Of a DNA stretch of 22,731 nucleotides, positions 2,488 to 20,297 are shown one piece after another. This DNA comes from a virus. The stretch is from positions 1 to 22,731 of the IMG/VR virus record IMGVR_UViG_3300050821_003770. One strand, 5' to 3'. How positions within the stretch are numbered: the first letter of the stretch is position 1; each line of letters starts with the position of its first letter. Both the position numbers and the translations under genes were made by a program. The notes below the pieces were generated by a model that had not been told where the DNA came from, made no database searches, and worked only from the letters and a program-made list of their open reading frames with translations.

Positions 2488-3643
2488 ACTCCTCGCGCTT
2501 ACCAAGCGAATCAAAGGGGTAGCAGGCGGCACATCGGCCGGCAAGACTATTAGCACGATTCAAATCTTGATCGACAAGGCTCAGAGTGACCCCAAACCAA
2601 CCCTGACCAGCATCGTCAGCGAATCATTCCCACATCTGCGCAAAGGTGCCATGCGTGACTTCCTCAACATCATGCAGTCGCACAACTACTACGACGACGA
2701 TCGCTGGGAAAAAACAATCTTCACCTACACGTTCGAAACCGGTAGCAAGATCGAGTTCTTTTCCGCCGATCAGCCAAGCAAGGTGCGCGGTCCACGCCGC
2801 GACCGGCTCTACATCAACGAGGCCAACAACATTCCGTTCGAAGCCTACGACCAGCTCGAAGTCCGTACGAAAGATGAAGTCTGGCTCGACTGGAACCCAA
2901 CCAACGAGTTCTGGTGGTACGACGAAGTAGCACCGCATCGTGACCACGATTTTGTCACACTGACGTATCTCGACAATGAAGCGCTCGACCCGCAGATCGT
3001 TGAGTCCATCGAATCGCACAAGCACAACAAACTCTGGTGGAATGTCTACGGCCTGGGGCAGCTCGGTGAAGTCGAAGGCAAGATATTCACCGGCTGGAAG
3101 ATTATTGACGAGATCCCTCACGAAGCCCGTCTGGTACGTCGCGGCCTGGACTTCGGCTATACCAACGATCCCACAGTCCTAGTCGACGTCTACGAGTACA
3201 ACGGTGGCTATATACTGGACGAGCAGTTGTATCAAAAAGGTCTACAGAATAAACCAATCGCCGACTTCATCAAGAACTTACCCAATCCACAAACGCTCAT
3301 CATCGCTGACAGTTCTGCCCCGAAAGACATTGATGAATTGAAACTTTATGGCATCAACATATTGCCAGCTAATAAAGGCCAAGGATCAGTCAATCACGGT
3401 ATTCAGAAGTTGCAAGACCAACAGATCAGCATCACCAAACGATCAGTCAATGCCATCAAGGAATACCGCAACTACATGTGGATGACTGACAAACAAGGTA
3501 AAATAATCAACACTCCCATCGACATGTGGAATCATTTCATGGACGCCACCAGATATGCCATGGAATCACTCAGGCCAAAAGTAAATATTACAAACTTTCA
3601 AACCACAGAAAACATATTTGATGACGACGGTTTCATGGTATAA
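2459..3643 (+). CDS. terL: Terminase large subunit, packaging ATPase-nuclease
   Basis: A 394-residue motor of the PBSX/Terminase_3-like group. The ATPase domain has Walker A GGTSAGKT (residues 23-30) and a Walker B-like segment LYINEANN (about 117-124), with Glu121 as likely catalytic carboxylate; Asn in place of Asp before it is common in this group. The C-terminal RNase H-fold nuclease shows three well-placed aspartates: D231 in RRGLDFGYTNDP, D284 in IIADSSAPKD and D362 in NHFMDATRYAME. It translocates DNA into the prohead and cuts it. The start lies inside terS (29-nt overlap), with only a weak AAGAAG upstream, so coupling is likely. Confidence 0.9.
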   Translation: MYEATTATHKLLALTKRIKGVAGGTSAGKTISTIQILIDKAQSDPKPTLTSIVSESFPHLRKGAMRDFLNIMQSHNYYDDDRWEKTIFTYTFETGSKIEFFSADQPSKVRGPRRDRLYINEANNIPFEAYDQLEVRTKDEVWLDWNPTNEFWWYDEVAPHRDHDFVTLTYLDNEALDPQIVESIESHKHNKLWWNVYGLGQLGEVEGKIFTGWKIIDEIPHEARLVRRGLDFGYTNDPTVLVDVYEYNGGYILDEQLYQKGLQNKPIADFIKNLPNPQTLIIADSSAPKDIDELKLYGINILPANKGQGSVNHGIQKLQDQQISITKRSVNAIKEYRNYMWMTDKQGKIINTPIDMWNHFMDATRYAMESLRPKVNITNFQTTENIFDDDGFMV

Positions 3644-4130: not shown

Positions 4131-4409
4131 ATGACCCAAACCATCGAACCACTCAACAACCAACTCTTCTGTGAACCAGTTGAGGAAGCCAAGAAAACAG
4201 CCGCAGGTATCCTCCTGGCCAACGATAACAGGAAGATCACCGCCCAAGCTAAAGTTATTAACACCGGCCCAGATGTTAAAAGTTTTAAGGCTCACGATCA
4301 CATCTTCTACAAGGACTACGCCGCAACTGAACTGCTATTAAACGGCCAGACCTACATCATCGTGGGCGCCGAAGATGTACTGGGTCGTATTGTCGAGGTA
4401 GAAGAGTAA
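4131..4409 (+). CDS. Phage GroES-like co-chaperonin
   Basis: A 92-residue GroES homologue with GGAG 7 nt before ATG 4131. The N-terminal IEPLNNQLFCEPV strand, the mobile loop (about residues 17-30, ending in AAGILLAND) that would bind the GroEL apical domain, and the C-terminal DHIFYKDYAATELLLNGQTY and GAEDVLGRIVEVEE strands align with GroES. The roof hairpin between NTGPD and VKSFKAHD is shorter than in bacterial GroES. In T4, gp31 replaces GroES and lacks the roof, enlarging the cage for capsid protein folding; by analogy this protein may help the host GroEL fold the capsid or another large late protein. It sits between TerL and portal. Confidence 0.85.
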   Translation: MTQTIEPLNNQLFCEPVEEAKKTAAGILLANDNRKITAQAKVINTGPDVKSFKAHDHIFYKDYAATELLLNGQTYIIVGAEDVLGRIVEVEE

Positions 4410-4662: not shown

Positions 4663-6744
4663 TTGGAGTATCACTACCGAACTTCGGGAATTATTGCCTT
4701 GGCCAAAAAAGCAGCAGACGCAACCGATGATAACTCACTGGACTCAGCAGTGTCCGTACTTAGTAGTGACCACGAAGCTGGTTGGGACGCACTCGCCACC
4801 ATCAGATCCACCTGGTATGACAAAGAACGTTTGTTAGTCGGCCGCCTTGCTGACCAGTACAGCCAGAAATCTGCTCGCTCACACGTCACGGACGCACACC
4901 TCTCAACACTCGCTTGGGAGCGCCAGATGCGTGTTTGTTCACAACTTCCTAGCGGCCAGGTCTATAACGTCAGCAAGAAAGACGAAAAAGCCGCCGCACT
5001 CATGAACCTTGTACTGAGCAAGTACATCATGCCCGGTGCCAACAGCCAGTTCGATCTCCTGACCAAACTCCGCATGACTGGTGTCTACGCTTCAACCTAT
5101 GGCGCTCAGTTCGTCCTCTATGCCTACCGCATTGATGATGAGTACATCGGCCCCGACTTCTGGTTAATCCCGGCTCGTAACATTGTCTTCCAACCAGGCC
5201 GCAACAACGTCCAGGATTGTGCATGGGTTGATGTCATTACCGAAGAGAACAAGAGTTACTTTGTCGACATCTCCAAACGAACCACCACTCAGTGGAGCAA
5301 ACCCAACATCAAGAAACTCCTCGCCGCTGTCAAAACAGGCGCTGTTCCAGCCTCAAACAACAAGGAAGACACCAAATCGGCTGTTGAACGCTCCCGCAAC
5401 CAAGTTGGTCAACCTGGTGGCAAGACTCCAAAGATCGAGTTGGTTACTCGCTACGAAAAGGGTAAGAATGGTCACTGGAAAACCTGGGCCAAAGACTACC
5501 CAGATGCCGGCGTTCTGCGTGACATCGAGAATCCATTCAAGTCAGGCAAGATTCCGATTGTTGGCCGCTACTGTTTCCCACTGCTCGATTCTATCTGGGG
5601 ACTGGGTGACTTCGAACGTGGTATCACCATGCAAAAGGCCAAAGACAGCCTGATTAACCTCTACCTCGAAGCCGTCAAGATGTCGATCTTCCCACCACTC
5701 ATGATCGACGTCGATCAAGTCACGCCATCAACCATCAAGATGGAAGCTGGCGCCCGTTGGTTCATGCAGTCCATGGACGCCGTTCAATCATTCGAAACCA
5801 GTCCGATGGGTGTCCAAGAGTTCACCTCAACCTATCAGTTCATGACGACCGCGCTGCTGAACCAGTTCGGTACCACAGACACATCCTCAAACGCTCACCA
5901 GTCTGGCAATGCCGCCTTTGGTAAAACACCCGAAGCACTCCAACAACTGCAGCAGCGTGAGTCAGCTCGTGACGCCTGGGATCGCTACATGCTCGAGAAA
6001 TTCATCCAAGAACTATTTGAAGGCATGATTAACCTGCTCGCGACCAAGCAAGAGAAGCCAATCAACTTCCACGTCTTTGATAAAGATATGGAAGAAATCT
6101 GTGAGCAGTTCTGTGTTGACGATGATGATGACAAAGAGAACGACGGCGCACCAACCAACCCTACGATGCCCGTTAAGAAGAAAACCAAGCCAGATCCAAA
6201 GCTCATCACCACCTACGACAACCGCACTGCCAAAGTCACCGTCAATAAGTCCGATCTCGTACCAGACAACAAATTCGTGGTTGATCCAAGCTCAACCCAA
6301 AAAGAAGATGAAGAAGCCCAGAATGAAAGTTTGACCCAGATCCTCAATCTCTACATGACAGCACCACAAGTCTGGGATCAACTCCTCAGCCAAGGCAGCA
6401 TGAAGTTCGACGCTGCTCAAGCCTTTAAGCAGTTCGTCCAAAACTCAGGTGTTCAAGACCCAGACAAGATCATTGTCACGACCGAGGACGAAGACCAACC
6501 GCAACTTGGCCCAGACGGTCAACCACTGCAACCCGCTCAACCAGGTGTTCCTGGCCAACCAACTCAGCCGGCCGCTGGCCAACCACCAAGCACACCAGCT
6601 ATGGCAAACCAAGTCCTGCAATCCGTCCAGCAAGGTGGTGATCCAACAGAAGCCATGAACAACCTGCAGCAAGCTGCCATGTATCGCGATCCACAATCAA
6701 TGCAAGCAGCAGCACAACTATTTCCACAAGGAGCACAACGATGA
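4663..6744 (+). CDS. Portal protein
   Basis: A 693-residue portal that would form the dodecameric DNA channel at the capsid vertex. Supporting features are its length, its place after terminase and before scaffold, a central region with YASTYGAQFVLYAYRIDDEY and WLIPARNIVFQPG, the conserved-looking helical core around residues 400-440 (TALLNQFGTT), and the crown/barrel-like helix LEKFIQELFEGMINLL. An acidic patch VDDDDDKEND lies near residues 484-493. The C-terminal 80 residues are Gln/Pro-rich, then helical. The only usable start is TTG 4663 (stop in frame at 4651-4653), with AAGG just upstream. The next gene overlaps by 4 nt. Confidence 0.85.
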   Translation: MEYHYRTSGIIALAKKAADATDDNSLDSAVSVLSSDHEAGWDALATIRSTWYDKERLLVGRLADQYSQKSARSHVTDAHLSTLAWERQMRVCSQLPSGQVYNVSKKDEKAAALMNLVLSKYIMPGANSQFDLLTKLRMTGVYASTYGAQFVLYAYRIDDEYIGPDFWLIPARNIVFQPGRNNVQDCAWVDVITEENKSYFVDISKRTTTQWSKPNIKKLLAAVKTGAVPASNNKEDTKSAVERSRNQVGQPGGKTPKIELVTRYEKGKNGHWKTWAKDYPDAGVLRDIENPFKSGKIPIVGRYCFPLLDSIWGLGDFERGITMQKAKDSLINLYLEAVKMSIFPPLMIDVDQVTPSTIKMEAGARWFMQSMDAVQSFETSPMGVQEFTSTYQFMTTALLNQFGTTDTSSNAHQSGNAAFGKTPEALQQLQQRESARDAWDRYMLEKFIQELFEGMINLLATKQEKPINFHVFDKDMEEICEQFCVDDDDDKENDGAPTNPTMPVKKKTKPDPKLITTYDNRTAKVTVNKSDLVPDNKFVVDPSSTQKEDEEAQNESLTQILNLYMTAPQVWDQLLSQGSMKFDAAQAFKQFVQNSGVQDPDKIIVTTEDEDQPQLGPDGQPLQPAQPGVPGQPTQPAAGQPPSTPAMANQVLQSVQQGGDPTEAMNNLQQAAMYRDPQSMQAAAQLFPQGAQR

Positions 6745-7413: not shown

Positions 7414-7556
7414 ATTCACATCTCATAACCACGGCTAACGTGGGCCGGTTTCAAAAACAAGGTTTCGTCATAAAGAGGGGTTCAGTGTTTGTTTTGTACT
7501 AAATAGGCATGTAAAAAGATTGCGACCGTTATTAGTCGTGGTTATGAGATGTGAAT
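7414..7556. repeat. 20-bp perfect inverted repeat before head operon
   Basis: ATTCACATCTCATAACCACG (7414-7433) and its exact reverse complement (7537-7556) flank a 103-bp centre. In RNA the stem would extend inwards to 25 pairs (7414-7438 with 7532-7556), with one G.U. The right arm ends 6 nt before the SD of the scaffold gene. No flanking target duplication is seen, so a transposon origin is not supported. A long RNA duplex for RNase III processing, or a regulatory site for the head genes, are the leading ideas. Confidence 0.8.
7489..7517 (+). promoter_or_regulatory. Possible promoter inside the inverted repeat
   Basis: TTGTTT (7489-7494), 17-bp spacer, TAAAAA (7512-7517). The -35 and spacing match the other promoters in the window, but the -10 is only 4/6. 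A transcript starting near 7524 would contain only the right arm of the inverted repeat. Confidence 0.3.
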
Positions 7557-7573
7557 GAAAAGAAAGGATGTGT

Positions 7574-8404
7574 ATGGATCCACAAGACCCAACACCCCCG
7601 GCGGAAAACACTGTCGCTGTAGAAGACAACAGCGCCCCTGCTTCGCCAGCAGCGGAACCAACAACTTCAGTAGAAACTCCTGTCGAGACGCCAGCAGAAG
7701 GTGAGCCAACGCCCACCGCAGAGCCAGCGCCAACAACACCAGTGGAACCTGAACACCAGCCCGCACGACCAGCCGAACGGCGGATACGTGACCTGGCGAG
7801 TGATAACAAGCGATTGGTCGAAGAGAATGCCAACCTCCTCGCTCAAGTGCCTGCAACGTCACCACAAACACCAACCTTATCCTCAATGGTTGCCGGTAGA
7901 GATTCTATCGACCCTAGCGAGTTAGATAAGATTGGTGAGCAATTTGTGGCTCAGACTGGACAAGCCGCGGCAACACTCGAAGTCAGCAAGTTGCGTTTTG
8001 AAATGCAACAAAAAGAAGCTGCCAGCCAGTTCCAATCAGACGTCCGGAAGGTAGAGAAACTCTATCCTGAACTCAACGAGGACTCACCGGAATATAACCC
8101 CGTGATAGCCGAGAAGGTTCAAAAGAACTGGGAAGCGCGTGCTATCCAAGTCAATCCCCTCAACCCAAAGATCAAAACGATCAATCCGCAAGTAAGGCTA
8201 GCGGATGTGGCGAAGGATTTCATGGAGGTTGCGAAAGCAGCCGGTGCCCACGGCCAACAGACCGCGAGTGCCGCCCTGGCCGCGAGTGAAGATACAGCTG
8301 CGTTAACGCCTAGTGCGTCCGCTCCTGCACCCGAAGTTGCGTTTGAAGATATGACGCTTAAACAACAAGAAGCGGAACTCCGAAAAAAGGGTCACAAGTT
8401 TTAG
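7574..8404 (+). CDS. Capsid scaffold protein
   Basis: A 276-residue protein directly before the major capsid gene. ATG 7574 is preferred to ATG 7568 because the SD (AAAGGA, 7563-7568) overlaps the latter. The N-terminal 75 residues are Pro/Glu/Thr/Ala-rich and disordered, followed by an Arg-rich start to a coiled coil (RIRDLASDNKRLVEENANLL) and a long helical region (LEVSKLRFEMQQKEAASQFQ). The C-terminus, MTLKQQEAELRKKGHKF, is a short basic helix such as scaffolds use to contact the coat protein. An acidic, helical protein in this position is the usual scaffold signature; direct similarity is weak. Confidence 0.75.
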   Translation: MDPQDPTPPAENTVAVEDNSAPASPAAEPTTSVETPVETPAEGEPTPTAEPAPTTPVEPEHQPARPAERRIRDLASDNKRLVEENANLLAQVPATSPQTPTLSSMVAGRDSIDPSELDKIGEQFVAQTGQAAATLEVSKLRFEMQQKEAASQFQSDVRKVEKLYPELNEDSPEYNPVIAEKVQKNWEARAIQVNPLNPKIKTINPQVRLADVAKDFMEVAKAAGAHGQQTASAALAASEDTAALTPSASAPAPEVAFEDMTLKQQEAELRKKGHKF

Positions 8405-8456
8405 TCAACTGGTCGTGGTTCTATCAACACATAAGTTTCCATAAGGAACCATAACC

Positions 8457-9383
8457 ATGTCAAACCTCACAACTAGCACGTTGTCGACGGACTTTATCGT
8501 CTATATCCAAAAACGATTCCTCGAGCGTGCGAAGAACAACATCATGTTCAAAGAGGGTGCTTCTCAGCAAGCTATCCCTGCTAACAGTGGTGTATCAATG
8601 ACGTTCAACCGTTACACTCCACTAGCCAACACGCCATCAGGCCAAGTACTAACAGAAGCGACCGTACCAACTGCTCAAGCCGTTACGAACTCACAAGTCG
8701 TTGCGACACTCGTTCAGTATGGTGGTGTGCTGACCGTATCTGACGTATTGAGTTCAGTATCTATCGACTCTCAATCAGTCGAAAAAACTGACCTGCTTTC
8801 TACGCAAATGGCTGAAACAATCGACAACAAGATTCGTGACGAATTGTTTAGTGGCTTCACTGTCCTCTACGCAAACGGCCGCGCAAACTTGAACGCGATC
8901 ACTGCAACAGACGCATTGACCGCTAAAGATGTCCTCCGTGTCCGACGTAACCTGTTCAAGAACGGTACGCAGGCATACGACGACGGTCGCTACATCGGTA
9001 AAGTCGGTGCTGATACCACCTTCGACCTGATGCAAGACAGCACCTGGGTCAACGCGCACACCTACAAAGATGGTGACAACCTCTACAACGCCGAACTCGG
9101 TCGTTTGTGGAATGTTCGCTTCCTTGAGGCTAACCAGAACCAGAAGAATGAAGCTAACGCGACTCCGGTCACTTGTTACTCTAACTTCTTCCACGGTAAA
9201 GGTGCGTTTGCAACTGTCGACCTGGACAACATGACCAGCGGCTTGTACGTTCACCAAGGTGGCAAGCAAGACACAAGCAACCCGTTGGAACAGTTCATCA
9301 CTATTGGTTGGAAAACTATCTTCGCAGTCAAGACATTGAACGCGAACTTTGGTATCAACCTAAAGACCGCTGCGAACTCTTAA
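8457..9383 (+). CDS. Major capsid protein, N4 gp56 family
   Basis: A 308-residue coat protein, with AAGGAA upstream of ATG 8457. The N-terminal IQKRFLERAKNNIMFKEGAS, then IPANSGVSMTFNRYTPLAN, LTEATVPTAQ, VVATLVQYGGVLTVSDVLS and ETIDNKIRDELFSG match the order of blocks in the N4 gp56-type major capsid family, an HK97-fold group. Several hundred copies would form the capsid shell around the portal. It is preceded by the scaffold and followed by a strong hairpin at 9407-9431, so it probably gets high expression from a short transcript. Confidence 0.9.
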   Translation: MSNLTTSTLSTDFIVYIQKRFLERAKNNIMFKEGASQQAIPANSGVSMTFNRYTPLANTPSGQVLTEATVPTAQAVTNSQVVATLVQYGGVLTVSDVLSSVSIDSQSVEKTDLLSTQMAETIDNKIRDELFSGFTVLYANGRANLNAITATDALTAKDVLRVRRNLFKNGTQAYDDGRYIGKVGADTTFDLMQDSTWVNAHTYKDGDNLYNAELGRLWNVRFLEANQNQKNEANATPVTCYSNFFHGKGAFATVDLDNMTSGLYVHQGGKQDTSNPLEQFITIGWKTIFAVKTLNANFGINLKTAANS

Positions 9384-9406
9384 TCAGAGTTAGTAACAGT
9401 TTAGAC

Positions 9407-9431
9407 GGTGGCCTAGTTGAACTAGGCCACC
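9407..9431 (+). terminator. Hairpin after the capsid gene
   Basis: GGTGGCCTAG (9407-9416) and CTAGGCCACC (9422-9431) form a perfect 10-bp stem with a 5-nt loop; the CCACCACC after it permits a shifted register. Only a moderately T-rich stretch follows (TGTTATTTTA), so it may terminate partially or protect the capsid mRNA 3' end. Confidence 0.6.
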
Positions 9432-9476
9432 ACCGTGTGTTATTTTAGAAATATATAGTAAACAAGGAAATATATC

Positions 9477-10000: not shown

Positions 10001-10303
10001 CTATCCTCTTTGCACAGCTACTCCACCAGGCGCACCAGCCTGTGGGTTAACTGTTTGTGGTTGAGGATCTACTGTCCCCGTTTGTGGATTGATTCCTCGA
10101 CTCTGCGGGTTATACGTGCTTGTTAAGGGTCCATTTCCCTGACTACTATCACCTTTTGGTGATGTATTGGCGACGTTAGCAGTCGTGGTGTATGAGTCCT
10201 GCAACCAAATTGTTACGACCGCACCCGCGACGACTAGTACGATAACTGCCAGCGCCGTCATTAAAGTTACTGTATAGGTGTTGGGTGTACGTGATATTTC
10301 CAT
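10001..10303 (-). CDS. Minus-strand single-pass membrane protein with 7-residue repeats
   Basis: A 100-residue protein read against the late genes. A short N-terminal segment (MEISRTPNTYTVT) leads to a transmembrane stretch (LMTALAVIVLVVAGAVVTIW, residues about 14-33). The rest is polar, Gln/Pro/Gly-rich, with four tandem 7-residue units of the form xNPQxxx (YNPQSRG, INPQTGT, VDPQPQT, VNPQAGA). AAAGG lies before the ATG at the right distance for an SD, and a TATAAT -10 lies upstream on the minus strand. A lone antisense gene with its own signals within a late module is the classic look of a moron, for example a superinfection-exclusion or cell-surface gene. Confidence 0.65.
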   Translation of the reverse strand: MEISRTPNTYTVTLMTALAVIVLVVAGAVVTIWLQDSYTTTANVANTSPKGDSSQGNGPLTSTYNPQSRGINPQTGTVDPQPQTVNPQAGAPGGVAVQRG

Positions 10304-10359
10304 TGTGGTATAACCTTTCTACTTTCCGAAGGGTCACGACCATGCTATTGTTAGACATG

Positions 10360-10384
10360 GCCCGAACTACAACTTCGGGCTTTT
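10360..10384 (+). terminator. Intrinsic terminator for plus-strand read-through
   Basis: GCCCGAA (10360-10366) and TTCGGGC (10374-10380) with a 7-nt loop are followed by TTTT. It would stop transcripts from the head operon after they cross the antisense gene at 10001-10303. Read on the minus strand the same hairpin falls in the 5' leader of that gene. Confidence 0.65.
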
Positions 10385-10396
10385 ATGATTTGTACT

Positions 10397-10402
10397 ATTA
10401 TA
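10397..10402 (-). promoter_or_regulatory. Possible -10 box for the minus-strand membrane gene
   Basis: A perfect TATAAT on the minus strand, with no good -35 at 16-18 bp. The start point would be near 10390, just before the hairpin at 10360-10380 and about 87 nt before the ATG at 10303. Confidence 0.35.
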
Positions 10403-10436
10403 TTAGCACAAAGGCCTTTAATTTACTATGTTGGTA

Positions 10437-10445
10437 TGATATTAT
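10437..10445 (+). promoter_or_regulatory. Extended -10 promoter for the internal-protein operon (copy C)
   Basis: TGATATTAT (10437-10445) is an extended -10, with TTTAAT 17 bp upstream of TATTAT as a weak -35. It lies upstream of the third copy of the conserved late leader. Confidence 0.4.
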
Positions 10446-10479
10446 TCTGGTAACCGAGCGATCAATCGCAAGGATCACG

Positions 10480-10530
10480 CCTACCTACGAATTAATAGAT
10501 GGCACGCCCTTCTGGGTGATGTCTATTTTT
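10480..10530 (+). promoter_or_regulatory. Conserved late leader, copy C: motif plus terminator-like hairpin
   Basis: The motif starts at 10480 (CTACCTACGAATTAATAG and three more bases) and matches copies A and B at 15 of 21 positions without gaps. Then GGCACGCCC (10501-10509) pairs with GGGTGaTGTC (10514-10523), one bulged A and two G.U pairs, around a TTCT loop, followed by TATTTTT. No complete plus-strand gene lies between here and the terminator at 10360-10384, so this hairpin does not simply end an upstream gene. Confidence 0.55.
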
Positions 10531-10590
10531 ATAGCAGGGGTTATCCTAATCTTCTCAGAAGCCAGCGCGCCGAGAGGAGATATATCACTA

Positions 10591-11661
10591 ATGGATTTAG
10601 GCCCAAACAACCCAACTGTAGTCGGTAATTTAGGTGTCGCTGGCGCTCTGGGGTCATCGACCGGTAGTGCTCAGGCATACCAACCAACAGTCGCACCCGC
10701 TGGTGGTGGAACCGTGGTGCCATTGGTGGGGGATGGTGGCACTCCTCAAACTCAACCACAACCACAGCAGCAACCACAGACCTACGCCGGATATGGCGGT
10801 TCATACTCGAGCCCTGACACCGCATCACTCGCCAATGCCTACGGTGCTCAGTTCGACGCTCAAACCCAAGCTATTCAAAACGCCATGAACCTCGCGCAAC
10901 AGGTTGCCAACTCAGGCCAGAGTCGCGTCGATCAGAGTTACGGCGTCCAACAAGGTGGTTTGCAACAACAACTGCAGATGGGTAACGCCAATCTCGACCA
11001 GTCGCAGAACCAGCTCGATCTCGCCAAGTCCAACAGTCTTCGTGACCTCGGAAACAACCTACGTCTCGCTTCCCAGAGTTACGCCAACCAAGCCGGGACG
11101 ATGGGCGCTGGTGACTCGTCTGCCATGGACGTTTTGAACTACGCACTCAGTAACCAGGGCAACCGCCAACGAAACGACGTCCTTCAAAACGCCGGCCAAC
11201 AGCAGACAGGGCTCAACCTTCAACGCTCCCAATTACAAGGCACGTACGACCAGAACCAAAAGATGCTCGACGACTGGCACGCCAACGAGATGCAAGCCAT
11301 CGTCAACCAGTACGCCACCCAAGAACAACAGTTCCAACAGGCCTTGGCGAACGCTCAAGGACAGAAAGCCATCGACCTTGCCTACATCGGTAAGGGTCAA
11401 GCTGCTAACAGCGCCATCCAACAGCTTCAAAACCTCCAAGCAACCTACAACGCCAACACCAACCAACTCCAAAACGCCTACAGCAATATCCAAGCACCCG
11501 ATGCTTCCCTCGGAGCTGGCTTAACGAACGCCTACAACGTTCAACCGATTAGTGCTGGCCAACTGACGACACAGAATCTGAGCAACAACCAAGCATCGTT
11601 TAGTCCTACCGACATCAACGCCAACCTAAAGAAGACAGATCAATTCGGTAATCCGGTTTAG
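10591..11661 (+). CDS. Q/N-rich coiled-coil internal virion protein
   Basis: A 356-residue protein. The in-frame ATG at 10285 is rejected because it would translate through the promoter and leader; ATG 10591 has AGGAG at about 12 nt. The N-terminal 75 residues are Gly/Pro/Gln-rich and disordered (PQTQPQPQQQPQTYAGYGG). Residues about 85-330 are almost entirely Gln/Asn/Ala-rich helix (ANAYGAQFDAQTQAIQNAMN, GLQQQLQMGNANLDQSQNQL), likely a long coiled coil. Such composition next to a giant protein, between head and tail genes, is typical of podovirus ejection (internal core) proteins. No direct family match is claimed. Confidence 0.65.
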   Translation: MDLGPNNPTVVGNLGVAGALGSSTGSAQAYQPTVAPAGGGTVVPLVGDGGTPQTQPQPQQQPQTYAGYGGSYSSPDTASLANAYGAQFDAQTQAIQNAMNLAQQVANSGQSRVDQSYGVQQGGLQQQLQMGNANLDQSQNQLDLAKSNSLRDLGNNLRLASQSYANQAGTMGAGDSSAMDVLNYALSNQGNRQRNDVLQNAGQQQTGLNLQRSQLQGTYDQNQKMLDDWHANEMQAIVNQYATQEQQFQQALANAQGQKAIDLAYIGKGQAANSAIQQLQNLQATYNANTNQLQNAYSNIQAPDASLGAGLTNAYNVQPISAGQLTTQNLSNNQASFSPTDINANLKKTDQFGNPV

Positions 11662-11670
11662 GAGCACCTA

Positions 11671-14600
11671 ATGTCTTTTCTAGATGACTTAGGTAACTGG
11701 CTCCACAAGACAGTCGATGATTCATCGAACGCCATTTTCGGTGGAGGACAAACATCTCCTGGGCCATCACCGGGTCCGTCACAAGGTCCACCACTGCGCG
11801 TGTCGATGGCTCAACCTGGTCAGATCCAAGCACCGAACGTCACATTACCGAGAATCCAACCCGCACAACCGGTTCAGCCGCCACAACCGGTTGTGCAACA
11901 AACGCAACAACACCCGATCCAAATCACTGCTAATCCGCAATTACTAAAGATGCCAAACCAACCACTTCAAGTCGTTGGCCCACATCAACCGGCGGTTCAG
12001 CAGCCGGATAATCCGCTGCAAGACTTAGCTAATAACGTCATCCACTTTGGACAGGGTGTTGTTGGTGATGTTGCTCAAGACGCTACGAAAACCTTTAACA
12101 CCGCGGCACTACCAATCGCAGCGGGCGCAGCCGCTGTGACTGGTCAAGCGAATAACCCTCAGACACAACAGAACTTAAACCAGATGCTCAACAATTCCTT
12201 CGTACCAAGGGATGTTGCTGGTGGTCAGGCAACGCCAGGACAGTTCGCCGGAGACTTTACGAAAACAGCCCTACACCTTGCGCCGTATGCAGTCGGCGGC
12301 GCTGACGGCAAACTCATTGACGAGTTCGGCAACGTGATAGGAAACAGGGTTGGTGACGGCGTGGCCGGCACAGTTGCCAACAAGGCTGCTCAGTACGGCG
12401 CACAAGCATCTGTAGCAGCTCCTACGTTTGCCGCACTCAATGCTGCCCAACAACTATCCGAGACAGGCCATTTCGATCCAATACAAGCCCTCCAGGCTGG
12501 CGGACAGGCCGCCGCCATGACACTCGGCGGTTCAGCAGTGGGAGATCTCGCACACGGCGCAGTCAGCGGTGTCAAGAACACGAACTTTGGTGACGAACGC
12601 GGTTCAATCCAGTTGCCCGGCAAGCCATCTGACGTGCCAGATGCCTACAAACCGCTGATCCCAATCGCAAAAGCTGCGAAGTCTGCTGACGATTTCGACC
12701 AGCAGCTCGCACTCCTGAACGTTAAACGGGATACATCACCAGCCGTAAAGAACGCCATCAATCTCGTTCCGAGCTCCAACTACGCCCAGGAGCTCTACGG
12801 CCGTCTAAACGGTCAGCAGTACGAGTACGGCGAACCTATTGGTGACATCGCCTCCCGAGTCGTCCAGCAGAAGCAAATCGACACTGCCAAGGTCGACCAG
12901 ATTCCGTATGACCTGCAACCGCTGGCTGGTATGGCGAAGAACTATCCGTCACCGGAACAGTTTGAAAAGAGTTACAACGCAATGATTACCAACGCCCAGG
13001 AGCGCGGCGACATGGCTGGCGTCGAGCAACTGCAGAACCAAAAGACACTAGCTGGTGACCTGCAAGGCTTCTACAAAAAAGTCCAAGATGTCTCAGACGT
13101 CAAGCGCATCAAACTTGAAGCGCAGCAAGCGAAGGTGCCGAAACCAGAGCAACTAGCCTTCCCAGATGAAGTCATGGAGTACGCCAACACCTTTGGCATC
13201 ACACCACACCAGGCTATGACCGACCTGCGCGAGATGAAGAACCCATCAACGCGCAATATCCAGGTCCCAGATCACCCAGAAGAGCTGACACCCGAAGATC
13301 GCCGCAAGATCATTGCCAGTGAGCCAGAACGCCAAGGGACGACAAACAAGGTCGACCTGGACGTTGAAAAGGGCAATATCAAGGGTGCGATTGCCAAGGC
13401 TATGTCGAGCGTCGAGCAGCGCAACGAACGTCTGGGACTGGCAGCGAAACTGGTCAACAAGCTGTCCAACAACGATAAAGAGTTGTTTTACCAGTGGGAT
13501 GACGGCTCAGACCCCGAGCAGTTAGCTCAACATGCCGACAACCCAACCGCGTTCAAGAAAGCCATCGCAACCGACGCCGATGCCTTCGACTACCACCTGG
13601 CAACCGACCGTGCAGCAGGTGGCACGACCTTGAAGCAGCGCAACTACGCCCTTCCGAAGATCTACAAACTCAGCCCAGAACAGATGGACGCCGAAGGTAT
13701 CCCAGAAACCCAACGCTTCAAGCAGGGCAAGTACACCGGCTTCCGTGACACCAGCTCCAAGTACCGGTCCTACATTGATGCCTACCAGCAAAAGGGTTTG
13801 GAACCGTTCTACGACAACCCTGCGGCTGCCATCGAGGACTACCTTCACAGCGGCTCAACTGGACTGCGTAACCAACTCCTGTACACGACGCTCGCAAAAG
13901 CGGCGCCAGAACACGTTGCTGACCTCGCGACGGTGGCAGACAGCCAAGGCCGCCACTTTACCCAAGCCGCGGGCCACCTACCGTTCGCTGCCTCGGATGA
14001 GTTGCAGCCCTACCTCAAGAACTTCAAGGAACCCTACAAAGCCGATAACAGAGCCATTCAACTCGGTATCAAGCAAGCAGCTAAAGCCAACTCTGCTGCC
14101 AAAGCGCTGTTGTTCTTTGGTTCACCATTCCACTACCACAACATGCTCAGCCGCTTCCTAGGCCTGACAGTGGGATCGGGTCACGGAATAACGGCTGGAA
14201 AAGGAACGATAGACAGTTTGGCTGGAAGTCTCATCCCTACTGTTTATCGCCGCAACGAAGCCAAAGCGATTAAAGACGGTTACCGCCAGTATGCCATCGA
14301 ACAGGGGGCAATGTACCACGATGTAAACAGTCCAATGAAAATCGGTCAGAACTCTCTGAAACTAAAAGCCCAGAACGCTGTTAGTAGGGTAAACCCGTTT
14401 GGACTTCAACAACGAAACATGGGTATGTTCTCTAACACCTTAATGGACACACTAGCTCACGCAGCTATGAAAGCCGGTGTTAAGAGTGGTAGTACCGAAG
14501 CAACCTCACTCTTTCACGAATACAACCAGACAATGGGTCTTATCAACGCAGCCGTCGAAGGACATGATCCAACGATAGACCGCATCATTAGTGGTGAAGC

Positions 14601-16425
14601 GTTAGCGCCTCAGTGGACACGCTCACAACTGGGACTCGTTAAAGACGCCGTGGTTAAGTCGACGATACCGGGCAAGATAGATGGTAAGAATGGTCTCGGT
14701 ATGTTTAACGCTGGTGATGTTGCTCGAACAACAGTTATCGGTACTCGTCTAACTCAAGCAGCTTTCGCTATCATTGCCTCGGCGGTTGCCACAGGCGCGA
14801 TGCCAACGCTCGAATCCATCATTAACAGAGGTGGTTTTAATCCAAATAACCCGCAACCCAACGTCGACCTCGGTCAAAAGAAGAAGAATGGTGAACACCA
14901 AGTCACCGACCTGCCAACTGATCCACTCGGCATGGCACTTGGCGCGGTGAGCGACCCGATTCACTTCCTCAACTCACGCACAAGTCCTGCCATAAGCTTC
15001 GCTACCCGAGAGTTATCAAACCAAGACTGGAACGGTGCGCAACTTGCTGATCCAAACAAACCCAACTTCCAGCTACTCAAACTACTCGGTGCAGCCAAAG
15101 GTGACCTACCGATTGGACTACAGAACTTCACTAACCCGAATCTGACGATCAACCAAGGTGTCCAGCAAGAGTTTGGTGGCCGCGTTAAAACTGATCCAAA
15201 CGATCCACAAGCCCAGCAGACGAATCAATACTTCCAGGCGACTGATGCTGCCAAGGCAGGCCTTACTCAGAACGACCTCGCGGTTTACAATGCTATCCAC
15301 CCCACGACTAAAGATGCGAACGGTAACTACATCGTTCAGCCGTCAGTATGGGATACCTCAGCCAAAGCCGAACTCTATATGCGAAACCCCAACGTCTTCG
15401 CGGCCGATCAGAAAGTTAACCAAACTCTCGCGGCCGAAGGCCAATCAGTTGATCCGTTCTGGACTAAATTGAACTCGCAGCAACAACAGGCACTCTTGTC
15501 ATACCAGACGATGCCTCCTGGTGGTAGCGATAAGGCGAAGTGGGTACAACAGAATGGCAGTTGGTACACACCGTTTAACCAGGAACGTTCAGCGTGGTTC
15601 AATACCTTGCCACCGGCTGATCCAAACAAACCGCAGCAAGAGATTCAACCACCACAACAGTCAGCACAACTGAGTAATCTGCTTAACCAGTACGACAACC
15701 TGACTGACTCACAAGCACGAGCACAGTTTATTTCTGCCAACCCGCAAATCGGCACTTACTTCAATCAAATGGCCGACTACAACAACCAGATGCGTACAGC
15801 GAAGGGTTATGACCCACTCCGAACCTCCCCGCAACCAGACGCAAATACCGAAAACTTCATGAACCAGTACTTTGCCGCCAGCACCGGTGATCGGAAAGGG
15901 CTACGCAACGCCTACCCAGAGGCGTACCTCGCCATGCAAAACTACATGGCCAACAACGATAGATACCAGCTCGACAAACAAGCCGGCCTCGACCAGTTGA
16001 TCGGTCCCGGTCAAAACAACCTCACCGCGCCAGCCCAGGCATACGATAAGTCAGCCTTCAACCTCGGGCAGTACGACATCGCTAAAGGTACAGACGCCAA
16101 CGGCAATCCTGCCTATCAGTGGTTCCCATCAACTAACACCGCCGCGGGCAGTACAGCCAACACCAGTCCTATCACCTCGATCACGGCAGGTGGCTATGGC
16201 TTCAAAGGTATTGATGGCTATAGCGGTAGTAGCAGTGGCGGCGGCTCATCAAAGAAGAAACCGAAAAAAGCTCGCATTTTCATCAAGCGTCAGAAAGTCC
16301 GTTACGTCAAGATCCGCAAGAACAAACATATTGGTGTCGGCGTACCAAAAGCCAATACAAGTTACGTCAACCTCGACGACCATAAGAAAATAACGCTATC
16401 GTCGAAATTAAAAGAAGTGGTATAA
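11671..16425 (+). CDS. Giant internal virion (ejection) protein with LPD-like region
   Basis: A 1584-residue protein with AGGAG before ATG 11671. An N-terminal Pro/Gln-rich linker (residues about 26-120) precedes an Ala/Gly-rich segment that may insert in membranes (about 133-160). The central-to-C-terminal part resembles the large polyvalent-protein-associated modules of phage giant proteins: ALLFFGSPFHYHNMLSRF (about 812-830), LAPQWTRSQLGLVKDAV (about 979-995), a hydrophobic segment AAFAIIASAVATGAMP (about 1030-1045) and SRTSPAISFATRELSN (about 1103-1118). The last 60 residues are strongly basic (KKKPKKARIFIKRQKVRYVK). It is probably packed in the capsid and injected with the DNA. Its TAA stop lies inside the -10 box of copy A. 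Confidence 0.7.
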   Translation: MSFLDDLGNWLHKTVDDSSNAIFGGGQTSPGPSPGPSQGPPLRVSMAQPGQIQAPNVTLPRIQPAQPVQPPQPVVQQTQQHPIQITANPQLLKMPNQPLQVVGPHQPAVQQPDNPLQDLANNVIHFGQGVVGDVAQDATKTFNTAALPIAAGAAAVTGQANNPQTQQNLNQMLNNSFVPRDVAGGQATPGQFAGDFTKTALHLAPYAVGGADGKLIDEFGNVIGNRVGDGVAGTVANKAAQYGAQASVAAPTFAALNAAQQLSETGHFDPIQALQAGGQAAAMTLGGSAVGDLAHGAVSGVKNTNFGDERGSIQLPGKPSDVPDAYKPLIPIAKAAKSADDFDQQLALLNVKRDTSPAVKNAINLVPSSNYAQELYGRLNGQQYEYGEPIGDIASRVVQQKQIDTAKVDQIPYDLQPLAGMAKNYPSPEQFEKSYNAMITNAQERGDMAGVEQLQNQKTLAGDLQGFYKKVQDVSDVKRIKLEAQQAKVPKPEQLAFPDEVMEYANTFGITPHQAMTDLREMKNPSTRNIQVPDHPEELTPEDRRKIIASEPERQGTTNKVDLDVEKGNIKGAIAKAMSSVEQRNERLGLAAKLVNKLSNNDKELFYQWDDGSDPEQLAQHADNPTAFKKAIATDADAFDYHLATDRAAGGTTLKQRNYALPKIYKLSPEQMDAEGIPETQRFKQGKYTGFRDTSSKYRSYIDAYQQKGLEPFYDNPAAAIEDYLHSGSTGLRNQLLYTTLAKAAPEHVADLATVADSQGRHFTQAAGHLPFAASDELQPYLKNFKEPYKADNRAIQLGIKQAAKANSAAKALLFFGSPFHYHNMLSRFLGLTVGSGHGITAGKGTIDSLAGSLIPTVYRRNEAKAIKDGYRQYAIEQGAMYHDVNSPMKIGQNSLKLKAQNAVSRVNPFGLQQRNMGMFSNTLMDTLAHAAMKAGVKSGSTEATSLFHEYNQTMGLINAAVEGHDPTIDRIISGEALAPQWTRSQLGLVKDAVVKSTIPGKIDGKNGLGMFNAGDVARTTVIGTRLTQAAFAIIASAVATGAMPTLESIINRGGFNPNNPQPNVDLGQKKKNGEHQVTDLPTDPLGMALGAVSDPIHFLNSRTSPAISFATRELSNQDWNGAQLADPNKPNFQLLKLLGAAKGDLPIGLQNFTNPNLTINQGVQQEFGGRVKTDPNDPQAQQTNQYFQATDAAKAGLTQNDLAVYNAIHPTTKDANGNYIVQPSVWDTSAKAELYMRNPNVFAADQKVNQTLAAEGQSVDPFWTKLNSQQQQALLSYQTMPPGGSDKAKWVQQNGSWYTPFNQERSAWFNTLPPADPNKPQQEIQPPQQSAQLSNLLNQYDNLTDSQARAQFISANPQIGTYFNQMADYNNQMRTAKGYDPLRTSPQPDANTENFMNQYFAASTGDRKGLRNAYPEAYLAMQNYMANNDRYQLDKQAGLDQLIGPGQNNLTAPAQAYDKSAFNLGQYDIAKGTDANGNPAYQWFPSTNTAAGSTANTSPITSITAGGYGFKGIDGYSGSSSGGGSSKKKPKKARIFIKRQKVRYVKIRKNKHIGVGVPKANTSYVNLDDHKKITLSSKLKEVV

Positions 16426-16426
16426 T
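16418..16426 (+). promoter_or_regulatory. Extended -10 promoter for tail adaptor/nozzle operon (copy A)
   Basis: TGGTATAAT (16418-16426) is a perfect extended -10. No -35 resembling TTGACA is present at 17 bp (ATCGTC). The predicted start is A16433, twelve bases from the hexamer start. The -10 contains the stop codon of the giant upstream gene. Confidence 0.6.
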
Positions 16427-16432
16427 CAAAGC

Positions 16433-16490
16433 ACAGCCACCTAGTAACAAATAGACGCTGCCCTTATTAACGGGGCGGCGTATTTTTATT
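16433..16490 (+). promoter_or_regulatory. Conserved late leader, copy A: motif plus terminator-like hairpin
   Basis: From the predicted start A16433 the RNA reads ACAGCCACCTAGTAACAAAT, then AGACG. Next ACGCTGCCC (16455-16463) pairs with GGGCGGCGT (16473-16481), nine pairs including one G.U, followed by TATTTTTATT. SD GGAAAG (16491-16496) and ATG 16503 follow. The hairpin thus stands between promoter and gene and could act as an attenuator; it could also end transcripts of the giant upstream gene. Confidence 0.7.
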
Positions 16491-16502: not shown

Positions 16503-17213
16503 ATGGCCACATTACTACCAGCAACGCTCCAAGATATACAAGACGAGATTCACACCCTAACAACGGGTGATGATGTCACGCCCGATCCAACTGACGATCA
16601 GTGGATTTCACGACTCCGTTATATTAACCTGGCAATCCGCATCTGGTTATCCCAAGACGTCGAGTGGAAAGAACTTTCCGGCACCTACTCTGGCTCTGTG
16701 ATTGCAGCCAATACTACTGTTTATGACCTTGGCAATGCTGACTCATTTAATGTTCTCAACTCACTGATCCAGCTCAAAGACGCGACCGGTAATCTCACCT
16801 TCATTGATGTGATTAAACCAGAAGACCGGATAAAATACCCAAACAATACCGGGCAATACGCCTATGTCACAGGCAATGCTGCTGACGGCTATTCGTTGGT
16901 TATCGGTTGGGTACCAAAGACAGGTGACAATCTGATTGGTACCACCATCCAGTTCGACTACCAAAAGACCGCCAATCGTTTAAGTAAGACCACAGACAAA
17001 CCGATCATGCGCGACCCAAGTTACATTTCGTTCTGGTCAGCCGCGCAAGAGTTGCAGTTTAACGGCAGTACCAACCTTGCTCAGACGTACCTCGATCAAG
17101 CGGACGATGCAATGCGCTTGATGAAGATTCGCAACGAGATGGCACCAGCCTATGCTTCCAACGCTCTTGTCGATGTTGAAGTCACTCGTAATAACGACGC
17201 CTTTGGGGACTAA
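16503..17213 (+). CDS. Tail adaptor / head-tail connector protein
   Basis: A 236-residue protein. The N-terminal part has a helical segment (TLQDIQDEIHTLTTGDD), SRLRYINLAIRIWLSQ and a beta-rich middle (SGTYSGSVIAANTTVYDLGN). The C-terminal part DPSYISFWSAAQELQFNG followed by LAQTYLDQADDAMRLMKIRN has the shape of podovirus adaptor (gp4/gp11-like) proteins that join portal to nozzle. It is immediately followed (2 nt) by the nozzle gene, which strengthens the call. Homology is by pattern, not a clear motif. Confidence 0.65.
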   Translation: MATLLPATLQDIQDEIHTLTTGDDVTPDPTDDQWISRLRYINLAIRIWLSQDVEWKELSGTYSGSVIAANTTVYDLGNADSFNVLNSLIQLKDATGNLTFIDVIKPEDRIKYPNNTGQYAYVTGNAADGYSLVIGWVPKTGDNLIGTTIQFDYQKTANRLSKTTDKPIMRDPSYISFWSAAQELQFNGSTNLAQTYLDQADDAMRLMKIRNEMAPAYASNALVDVEVTRNNDAFGD

Positions 17214-17215
17214 AC

Positions 17216-19213
17216 ATGGCGACCAAGCGAACCAAACTCAAAGGTGACAATGTTAAACCTTTTGAAATAATCATGAACGAGTTTAACGGTGGCACGATGA
17301 CGCTGCCCGATGAGTCACGTATCCCGCCAAAGGCCATGTCCGTCACGACAAACCACATTCTTGATGAAGATGGCATCTGGCGCCCACGTCCTGGCTCACA
17401 AAACTACGGCCACTCACTGACAGGTCCGATTGATGGCATAGGCACTGCGACGGTCTATGGCGCTGGCACTAGCCGCACGACCTATCTGCTCGTGGTCGAT
17501 AACGGTTCACTCAAGTACTCGACCGATGGGGGAGCCTGGACAACTGTCAGCGGTAAGACCTACACCACCGGAAAACGAGCTGACATGCTGCAGATGAAAA
17601 GCCGCGTCTATATTGCTAACGGCTACGACAACCTCAGCTACCTTGACCTGAACACTCTGATGATAACCACCTATACGGCGCTCACTGCGCCCACCCTCCC
17701 CGGTACACCACTTGCTCGAACAACCCTGACATCGGGCAGCTTTAACGTCTACTACCAAGTGTCAGCCGTCAGTGATATTGGTGAGACGATTGCCAGTACC
17801 GAAGCAACCATCACGGTCAACAAGGTCCGCAACAACTGGTCGCTCACCGCCAATGAAAACATCACTTTCACCTGGAACACGGTGACTGGTGCCAAGCGCT
17901 ACAACATCTACTACACCGATCAGACAGGCCAAGAAGTCTTCCTGGACTCCACTACCGCCCTCAGTTACGTCGATACCGGTGTGGCGACACCAAATCCCTA
18001 CCAAGCTGCGCCGGCCTTTGATGGCACAGCCGGTCCCGCAGTCTCGAAGCTCTGTATGTCAGGCAACCGGCTATGGGGGACTGGTGATCCAAACAACCGC
18101 TACCGCATCTCATTTACTGGTGTTGGCGCCAGCCTCGGTTCGTTCAACCCGTACGTCGGGGGTGGCTATATCGACCTCAACCTCGGCTCAGAAGAGATTC
18201 CGATTGACCTGCAGCACTTCCGTAACGGTAAGGGCGACCAAATGCTCTTGGTTCTTACCTCAGGCCCGACTGGTGGCGGCTCAACCTGGTTTATTACGCT
18301 CAGCACACTCACCGTGGATGTGGTGAACGTTGTTGTGCCTCAAGCTGTCTCACAAGGCTCGATTGGTTCAGACGCGCCGTACGGGAACGTCCAGGCCATG
18401 AATAACATCTACTACCCAAGCATTAAAGGCTTCCAGCAGGTTGGTTCGAGCCAGGCCATCTTCAACGTCATCGTCACCACCGAAGTTAGTGCCAACATCC
18501 GGCCAAATGTCCGGTCCATTACCAGTACGGCCGCCAGTCAGATATGCGGTATCTATTCGTACGGCAAGATCTATTGGTCCGTTCCGTATGCCTCAAGCGT
18601 CAATAATCAGATATGGGTGCTCGACCTCGAGCGACAGTGTTGGGAAATCGCCTTCACGATTGGTGTGGAGCAGTTCATCGAGTATTCCGACAGTGCGGGT
18701 GTGGTACATCTTCTGGCGTTGCCAGTTACCGGTACGAACTTGATTGAGTTTAATCAGACATTCCAGGGCGACCAAGGCACACCATTCGATCTTGACCTAA
18801 CCACTGGTTTGATTTATATCAATGATAATCACTTCCAGCAGGGTAAAGTCCGAAAGGTCTATGCCGAACTCGGCCGTTTTAAAGGTACCCTCGATTTTAA
18901 CGTCTACGGCACCGTAGGCAATAAACCGCTGGCGCTGCTAAAAACACTGCACATTAGCGATACTTCGTCGCTTGGTGCATCTGGGCTCGGTAACGATCTA
19001 ATGGGTGATGTTGAGATGGGCGATAGTAACTACGTACCAACAGTGGCTGCGACTCAATCAAGCATCAAGAAATCTATCCTGCTAAACAAGGTCGTCAACA
19101 ACCTAAAATTGCAACTGCAATCAAGTGACATCAATACAGACTATAAACTCCTCGAGTTCGGTGTCGCCGGTCAAATCACACCAGTTGCCGACCCGTCCTC
19201 ATGGCGAAAATAA
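17216..19213 (+). CDS. Tail nozzle protein (T7 gp12 / P22 gp10-like) with a FnIII-like insert
   Basis: A 665-residue protein, ATG 17216 with GGGGA upstream. The N-terminus FNGGTMTLPDESRIPPKAMS, then ILDEDGIWRPRPGSQNYG, is the usual opening of podovirus nozzle/tail-tube proteins that list gene products along the DNA exit path. A FnIII-like region at residues about 155-257 contains YYQVSAVSDIGETIAS and TWNTVTGAKRYNIYYTD. The remainder is beta-rich with propeller-like repeats (GNRLWGTGDPNNRYRISF, YGNVQAMNNIYYPSIKG, ICGIYSYGKIYWSVPYA). It would form the tail tip channel under the adaptor and carry the fibres. Confidence 0.7.
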   Translation: MATKRTKLKGDNVKPFEIIMNEFNGGTMTLPDESRIPPKAMSVTTNHILDEDGIWRPRPGSQNYGHSLTGPIDGIGTATVYGAGTSRTTYLLVVDNGSLKYSTDGGAWTTVSGKTYTTGKRADMLQMKSRVYIANGYDNLSYLDLNTLMITTYTALTAPTLPGTPLARTTLTSGSFNVYYQVSAVSDIGETIASTEATITVNKVRNNWSLTANENITFTWNTVTGAKRYNIYYTDQTGQEVFLDSTTALSYVDTGVATPNPYQAAPAFDGTAGPAVSKLCMSGNRLWGTGDPNNRYRISFTGVGASLGSFNPYVGGGYIDLNLGSEEIPIDLQHFRNGKGDQMLLVLTSGPTGGGSTWFITLSTLTVDVVNVVVPQAVSQGSIGSDAPYGNVQAMNNIYYPSIKGFQQVGSSQAIFNVIVTTEVSANIRPNVRSITSTAASQICGIYSYGKIYWSVPYASSVNNQIWVLDLERQCWEIAFTIGVEQFIEYSDSAGVVHLLALPVTGTNLIEFNQTFQGDQGTPFDLDLTTGLIYINDNHFQQGKVRKVYAELGRFKGTLDFNVYGTVGNKPLALLKTLHISDTSSLGASGLGNDLMGDVEMGDSNYVPTVAATQSSIKKSILLNKVVNNLKLQLQSSDINTDYKLLEFGVAGQITPVADPSSWRK

Positions 19214-19216
19214 CTA

Positions 19217-19245
19217 TTGTTTATTTAGCCTAAGCGTCGTATTAT
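19217..19245 (+). promoter_or_regulatory. Promoter for the fibre/lysis operon (copy B)
   Basis: TTGTTT (19217-19222), 17-bp spacer, TATTAT (19240-19245). The predicted start is A19252. The -35 begins 3 nt after the nozzle stop codon. Confidence 0.65.
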
Positions 19246-19251
19246 TGTGGT

Positions 19252-19308
19252 ACAGCTACCTAGCAACGAATAGCCGCTGTCCTGAGTTTTCTTGGGGCAG
19301 CGTTTTTT
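19252..19308 (+). promoter_or_regulatory. Conserved late leader, copy B: motif plus terminator-like hairpin
   Basis: From A19252 the RNA reads ACAGCTACCTAGCAACGAAT, then AGCCG. CGCTGTCC (19275-19282) pairs with GGGCAGCG (19295-19302), eight pairs with one G.U, followed by six T. SD GGAAAAA and ATG 19323 follow at once. It matches copy A across the motif, the stem and the SD region, while the loops differ. Confidence 0.7.
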
Positions 19309-19322
19309 AATGGAAAAAGTAT

Positions 19323-20297
19323 ATGACAGCAGCCAATACGGACAAAATTAGAAAGTCAACCAACAACTTCAATACGACACTTTCGAGTTCGATCAATAAC
19401 ACTGATACGACGATGACCTTAGCTACTGTTACGGGATTAGACACGGCGAACGCAATCGACCTCGTTATCGACCGAGTAGATGCGAACGGCAACCGGACGC
19501 CGGCCAAACGTGAGTACATCGTCGGGGTTGTGGCTGGCTCAACTATCACATCCATGATTCGAGCTAAAGGTGGTTCAACCGCTCTCACCCACGCTTCTGG
19601 CGCCATTGTCGAAGCCGTTGCCAACGCCCAGGTGCAGAACGACCTCGCTGATGCCCTTACCACCACCCTTAATCAAGACGGCTCACTCAAGTCGTCTCTG
19701 TCGATCACGGCACCCTCAATTACCACCCCTACACTAACAACACCTAAAGTCGTTACTTCAATCAACGACACGAGCGGCAATGAGCTAATCTCCGTCACTT
19801 CGACGGCCTCGGCTGTCAACCAGGTCAACGTTACTAACTCAGCCACAGGTACCGGCCCAACTATCTCGGCTGTTGGTGGTGATACGAATATTGACTTAAA
19901 GTTGAACTCAAAGGGTACCGGCAAAATCGACTTTGGAACAACAGGACTATCTAACGGCATACAAACTCAGGCTAATGCTGGCAGCGCAGGCGGTACTATT
20001 TACTACATCAACCTTGGTGGCATTAAAATGGCATGGGGTACAACAGGTTCTCTTAGTATCTCGGGTGCGGCGCCAGCTTCTTCTGCAGCCTATGTAATAA
20101 CTTGGCCGACCAGTTTCTTCTCAACTATTCAATCAGCTACCGTTTCAGCCGTATCTGGTACATCGAGTAGTACGCAGTATGTTTATGCAGCGCCAGATAC
20201 AGTCGTTACAGCAACAAGCTGGACGTTCTTTCTGGTTGAAAGTAATGGAACTAATGGCGTAACCTCTCAGGCGTCATTTTTCGCGATAGGTACATAA
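19323..20297 (+). CDS. Tail fibre / receptor-binding protein
   Basis: A 324-residue protein. The N-terminal 100 residues are Thr/Ser-rich beta (TTMTLATVTGLDTANAIDLV; GSTITSMIRAKGGSTALTHA). Residues about 178-205 contain PTISAVGGDTNIDLKLNSKG, the repeat type found in fibre shafts of tailed phages. The C-terminal tip (about 233-324) starts GGIKMAWGTTGSLSISGA and continues as a compact beta domain like gp53-type fibre tips. It is first in the lysis/fibre operon and probably binds the host surface; as usual the tip would set host range. The stop overlaps the next start (TAATG). Confidence 0.65.
   Translation: MTAANTDKIRKSTNNFNTTLSSSINNTDTTMTLATVTGLDTANAIDLVIDRVDANGNRTPAKREYIVGVVAGSTITSMIRAKGGSTALTHASGAIVEAVANAQVQNDLADALTTTLNQDGSLKSSLSITAPSITTPTLTTPKVVTSINDTSGNELISVTSTASAVNQVNVTNSATGTGPTISAVGGDTNIDLKLNSKGTGKIDFGTTGLSNGIQTQANAGSAGGTIYYINLGGIKMAWGTTGSLSISGAAPASSAAYVITWPTSFFSTIQSATVSAVSGTSSSTQYVYAAPDTVVTATSWTFFLVESNGTNGVTSQASFFAIGT

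Follow-up and report, generated by a model that had tools for sequence, protein, structure and literature searches.

Gene content of the window and its probable host

The window analysed here is the whole 22.7 kb stretch of virus record IMGVR_UViG_3300050821_003770, which is an incomplete record. Family matches in the window are limited to the terminase, portal, capsid, GroES and amidase genes (Table 1). We searched for family matches of the two genes behind leader copy C, encoding proteins of 356 and 1584 residues, and found none; the 1584-residue product of the giant gene is presumed to be an internal virion protein on the basis of gene position and synteny with prophages. The closest relative found is a prophage in the Saccharibacteria MAG UBA6039, whose portal and capsid proteins are 66% and 71% identical to those of the window phage. 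This relative is integrated, with an integrase beside the terminase end and a leucyl-tRNA synthetase on the same contig. The window phage thus probably infects a saccharibacterium, one of a group of ultrasmall episymbiotic bacteria. Closer relatives were sought among viral contigs with the giant and tail proteins, and none was found.

Several smaller features accompany this gene map. The window phage carries GroES (Cpn10), and GroEL is encoded in the related prophage (L034:9783-11456, minus strand). Directly 5' of the presumed scaffold gene, positions 7414-7556 contain an inverted repeat of 25 nt (96%) with arms 93 nt apart; its element TCGTGGTT is seen again near 8410, before the capsid gene, and tRNA and Rfam searches with the repeat gave no match. 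In the late region, a minus-strand ORF (10001-10303), divergent from the operon behind C, encodes a product of 100 aa that has a single apparent transmembrane segment and a tail rich in proline.

Table 1. Coordinates of genes, leader elements and related hairpins. Positions refer to the window unless another sequence is named.
Feature	Position	Strand	Basis or remark
Terminase	2459-3643		family match
GroES-like (Cpn10)	4131-4409		family match
Portal	4663-6744		family match
Presumed scaffold	7568-8404		without family match
Capsid (major capsid gene)	8457-9383		family match
D, terminator after major capsid gene, related upstream TAGTAACAGTTTAGACGG	9388-9447	+	without H1 outer helix
C, extended -10-like TGATATTAT	10437-10445	+	sequence; expected +1 ~10452; ~35 nt 5' of core
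C, extra small hairpin GCGA-TCAA-TCGC (GCGAUCAAUCGC)	10458-10469	+	sequence, fold; not in A or B
C, alternative imperfect rod, 80 nt, U-run paired	10469-10548	+	-27.1 kcal/mol, z -3.28, 0/200 shuffles
C, H1 GCC / UAC / CUA / CGAAUUAA / UAG / AU / GGC	10479-10503	+	RNAalifold, pair counts, descriptor, MFE of isolated 5' part, blind model R2
C, terminator-like hairpin (loop UUCU) and U-run	10497-10531	+	5' arm includes H1 3' arm
First gene behind copy C	10591-11661	+	356 aa, Q-rich; AGGAG 10575-10579; ORF list
Giant gene, second behind copy C	11671-16425	+	1584 aa; presumed internal virion protein
A, -10-like TATAAT within TGGTATAAT	16421-16426	+	
A, H1 CAGC / CAC / CUA / GUAACAAA / UAG / AC / GCUG	16434-16460	+	descriptor, pair counts, RNAalifold, MFE
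A, terminator hairpin and U-run	16455-16487	+	-18.9 kcal/mol, z -2.87
Presumed adaptor	16503-17213		without family match
Presumed tail protein	17216-19213		without family match
B, -10-like TATTAT	19240-19245	+	
B, H1 ACAGC / UAC / CUA / GCAACGAA / UAG / CC / GCUGU	19252-19280	+	descriptor, pair counts, RNAalifold, MFE
B, terminator hairpin and U-run	19275-19308	+	-21.2 kcal/mol, z -3.46
Presumed fibre	19323-20297		without family match
Amidase	20629-21417		family match
Bulged-A hairpins, L042	L042:14360-14461	-	
Bulged-A hairpins, L043	L043:18960-18992; 6032-6063	-	
Bulged-A hairpins, L044	L044:17342-17418	-	

Copy C is a diverged copy of the A/B leader

Copy C spans positions 10474-10533, and the ATG at 10591 follows ~60 nt downstream of its U-run. 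Copies A and B lie at 16430 and 19249, and copy U, found in the related Saccharibacteria prophage (L028), is the homologue of B at the same gene junction; the four copies thus come from two phages. The core of C is the 18-mer CTACCTACGAATTAATAG at 10481-10498, which has no second occurrence in the window even when three mismatches are allowed and is identical to B at 14 and to A at 13 of its 18 ungapped positions. B is the top plus-strand match to this core; A shares second place with a site at 18412. The first-pass annotation had located C, including core, stem, loop, U-run and -10-like box, to within one base. Its 9-pair stem with a TTCT loop is present (9 pairs with one bulged A), and the minimum free energy fold of a 56-nt segment gives a stem of 13 pairs with two bulges, again with loop TTCT, then TATTTTTAT. 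The identity of 15/21 that it had reported to each of A and B stands for B, and amounts to 14 for A.

The relationship of C to the other copies was assessed with covariance model R2, built from A, B and U with C left out. Blind to C, this model recovered it with 20.5 bits (E = 4e-4), and the only match comparable to C was the antisense of the palindromic copy A. C also resembles A and B better than shuffled AT-rich leaders do: its joint similarity to A and B was reached in 0.07% of 3000 dinucleotide shuffles of the leader, its joint similarity to A, B and U in 0% of 3000, and none of 283 real 155-nt segments of the window matched its similarity to A and B. Sites combining the core score of C with three or more outer pairs and with a U-run occurred at 0.007 per shuffled strand, with the helix arms excluded from the sequence score. 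In a 22-column sequence profile of A, B and U, C ranked third in the window behind A and B with 12.3 bits, a value within the range of shuffled windows (median maximum 11.0); the significance of C therefore derives from context and structure, not from whole-window primary sequence alone. Like A and B, C carries the core CYACCTA..AA..AATAG followed by a hairpin and U-run that characterises this leader family. C is a genuine diverged third copy of the A/B leader. A tandem duplication inside C (C1-C2) was considered and found not to be significant (88/1000).

The frame of the 356-aa gene is open for 102 codons 5' of its ATG (10285-10591) and runs through leader C, probably by chance; a longer product starting near 10520 (MSIFIAGVILIF...) is possible.

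A hairpin sharing one arm with the terminator

All four copies can form the same hairpin, denoted H1. It consists of an outer helix of 3-5 bp, a 3x2 internal loop (YAC opposite two nucleotides), CUA:UAG and an 8-nt loop, and was returned unprompted by RNAalifold from a plain MAFFT alignment of A, B, U and C. The outer helices read CAGC/GCUG in A, ACAGC/GCUGU in B, CGGU/GCCG in U and GCC/GGC in C. Of the H1 cells, 96.4% are paired, compared with 11-57% when the partners were slid, and two outer pairs show compensatory changes among the four copies. In letter-shuffle controls the covariation score was reached in 21/500 and the compensated-pair count in 95/500 cases; the covariation is thin because there are four copies only, two of them recent duplicates. 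H1 is the minimum free energy structure of the isolated 5' part in 4/4 copies (-2.7 to -6.0 kcal/mol). It is weakest in C, where three outer pairs form, the fourth being C-A (-2.7 kcal/mol).

In 4/4 copies the 5' arm of the terminator-like hairpin is predicted to include the 3' arm of H1, so that H1 and the terminator are mutually exclusive. H1 is weaker than the hairpin that follows: the full terminator folds range from -13.2 (C) to -21.2 kcal/mol (B). Termination would thus be expected by default, with read-through needing help. Between B and U, the terminator hairpin has kept its shape and changed its sequence. A search of the plus strand with the H1 descriptor followed by TTTT gave five sites (A, B, C, E and the terminator stem of D), against 0.16 in shuffles. 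In these fold predictions the unit looks like a hairpin mutually exclusive with a terminator, with the antiterminator/terminator logic of ribonucleic antiterminators (RAT).

Promoter spacing and late operons

Every copy has a -10-like box just 5' of it, and the -35 boxes are poor (3/6 matches in C). Counting 7 nt past the -10 puts the expected start of A and B exactly on the first base of ACAGC, and promoter and hairpin are therefore inseparable there. As had been noted at first pass, the core of C is not at the +1; it lies ~28 nt beyond the expected start. The distance from start to H1 is 0 in A and B, ~9 nt in U and ~27 nt in C, so that U departs as well as C from an H1 directly at the transcript start, while the overlap of H1 with the terminator is constant. 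The -10 region of C aligns locally with B (TATTATTnTGGTA at 10440; 0/1000 shuffles), which points to conservation of the promoter half as well, with extra sequence at 10452-10478 before the hairpin. The proposal that C is the regulatory unit of A and B with an altered start-point distance is supported.

The three copies of the window precede three late operons, as originally proposed: internal virion proteins (10591-16425), adaptor and tail (16503-19213), and fibre and lysis (from 19323). Models R1 and R2 found no copy before the scaffold gene, the capsid gene or the gene after the capsid. Between C and the terminator at 10359-10381 the plus strand carries no gene, which bears out the first-pass annotation; the sole ORF nearby is the minus-strand one described above.

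Two further sites resemble the leaders. D aligns locally with A at a level reached in 0/400 shuffles, and the D hairpin has a z score of -4.63; D may be the unswitched relative. Site E (10340-10384) has a hairpin CCAUG-CUA-UUGU-UAG-a-CAUGG that immediately precedes the terminator at 10359-10381; TGGTATAAC lies 5' of it, as it does in A, and the site may be a further, more diverged unit ahead of C. Neither D nor E was found by R1 or R2. A D-like arrangement is seen at L017:15330-15395, in a phage with a 39% identical capsid protein, where the capsid gene is followed by CTAGCTAACTAA with several stop codons and a GC hairpin.

A probable conditional terminator

Taken as a whole, the data are best explained, we think probably correctly, by C being the third copy of a leader that acts as a conditional terminator. 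Within this account we infer promoter use, a switch, a factor and a timing, as follows. A transcript from the promoter just 5' would first form H1, a weak hairpin of 25-29 nt with an asymmetric internal loop. On further transcription the stronger terminator hairpin would capture the 3' arm of H1, the U-run would come next, and RNA polymerase would then halt ahead of the late operon (default off). An RNA-binding factor holding H1, for which the candidates are a late regulator of the phage and a protein of the host, would block the terminator and allow the operon to be read. Internal proteins, tail genes and fibre/lysis genes would in this way share one signal that leaves out the head genes.

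The copies might instead be ordinary intrinsic terminators at operon junctions, duplicated together with their upstream flank and devoid of switching, partial read-through setting gene dosage. A and B do lie directly after genes and have strong terminators, and the related terminator D, behind the capsid gene, has no H1. However, C ends no plus-strand gene, a terminator being already present at 10359; H1 has been retained in four copies despite changed stem sequences; and a -10-like box stands just 5' of each copy. We regard this account as a minority possibility. D also prompted us to consider a pure terminator-associated motif, or a stop-codon cluster before terminators, which was rejected as a complete explanation, since no gene ends at C and H1 covaries.

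Rather unlikely, in our judgement, is antitermination of the Q or AlpA type, in which the conserved block would be a promoter-adjacent DNA or pause element that loads a factor onto RNA polymerase, and the RNA hairpin would be irrelevant. The start of A and B exactly at the conserved block, with the terminator directly downstream, would suit such a system, and comparable arrangements have been described for Q and AlpA (PMC6606751, PMC9371919). Such a DNA element should keep a constant distance to the promoter; here the block lies 0-27 nt past the +1, being displaced from the -10 in C (~27 nt) and U (~9 nt) and never from the terminator, and compensatory changes in the outer helix are unexpected for a DNA site. 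Because the promoter distance is free and the junction with the terminator fixed, the requirements of an antiterminator fit and those of a promoter-bound DNA element do not; the displaced H1 of C, which makes this the informative copy, favours an RNA switch. Very little probability, finally, is left for the hairpin of C as an RNA-processing or translational element acting through stability or sequestration of the ribosome-binding site, with no terminator switch: the 80-nt rod fold (z -3.28) and the gene start only 60 nt downstream would agree with it, but no such rod is predicted for A, B and U, and the conserved hairpins do not contain the ribosome-binding sites.

If the conditional terminator is real, repeating it ahead of three late operons would offer a simple means of linking the tail, internal-protein and lysis genes to a single signal, and H1 would provide an RNA target for fishing out the factor. 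Literature searches on late-gene control in Saccharibacteria phages found nothing, and a RAT-like switch on phage late genes would have no precedent in the literature searched.

Comparison with known antitermination systems

LicT-family RAT leaders are mutually exclusive with their own terminators and are stabilised by protein (PMC3369936; PMC9981650); the RAT stem has two asymmetric internal loops (PMC3369936). The RATs of the BglG/LicT/SacY group and H1 are alike in being hairpins of about 25-30 nt with an asymmetric internal loop, weak alone and exclusive with a following intrinsic terminator. They differ in that H1 has a single 3x2 internal loop and an 8-nt loop in place of two asymmetric loops, and in that RATs control sugar operons whereas the leaders described here precede phage late genes. 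To our knowledge, H1 contains no recognisable RAT consensus. No leader copy had a match in Rfam, no CAT/PRD protein was found among the window proteins (from an incomplete record) and the related-prophage ORFs scanned, and no CAT, PRD or ANTAR domain was present in those early ORFs of the related prophage that were tested. As the internal-loop pattern differs, Rfam gives no match and the scanned set contains no CAT/PRD protein, H1 can be said to share the logic of RATs, not membership.

The two-hairpin leaders of ANTAR proteins (NasR, EutV) likewise have a hairpin that overlaps the terminator; they have P1 and P2 loops with A1 and G4, whereas a single hairpin with an 8-nt loop is present here. 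The put RNAs of HK022 and nut/boxB of lambda are phage leader-RNA hairpins too; they govern termination at distant terminators and share no arm with them, unlike H1, and the leader copies have no sequence or Rfam match to either. In lambda Q and AlpA, the terminator also lies 3' of the promoter and is bypassed once the factor is loaded, and Q serves phage late genes; the DNA element of those systems keeps its place relative to the promoter, whereas the element described here keeps its place relative to the terminator.

Distribution of the leader and hairpins in distant prophages

Across 394 family genomes, model R1 found a copy in the known prophage and in none of the 393 others, so that the evidence for conservation comes from one prophage. 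The next R1 match (L050) lies inside a coding gene and was rejected; matches with lower scores were judged by alignment only. Among the IMG/VR viral contigs, a strict DNA pattern gave no further copy, and the single match to a relaxed pattern falls inside a coding gene. In the UBA6039 prophage the locus corresponding to C falls in an assembly gap, the capsid and tail protein running off separate contig ends.

H1 is absent from three prophages that are more distantly related and encode a similar tail protein (L042, L043 and L044); at matching positions they have another hairpin. Their leaders were considered as homologues and rejected: R1 matched none of them, in L043 also with filters off, and they are therefore parallels only, not members. 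We propose, tentatively and with more doubt than confidence, that H1 represents a new class of antiterminator hairpin that coordinates the late operons of a Saccharibacteria phage through a phage or host RNA-binding factor, and that in the distant Saccharibacteria prophages a bulged-A hairpin, distinct from H1 and placed at the corresponding operon positions, may serve this purpose too.

Six such hairpins of one architecture occur in the three Saccharibacteria prophages, each with 4-5 bp, a single bulged A, 2-3 bp and a loop UAAAGAC or UAAAGAGUAC-like; Rfam gave no match for them. They are located in the leader of the gene preceding the giant gene; L043 has this architecture ahead of the adaptor as well. 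In the four units of L042 and L044, five of seven pairs show compensatory changes, and the covariation score was reached in 0/500 shuffles. The first unit lies exactly 25 nt past a -10-like box in all three prophages.
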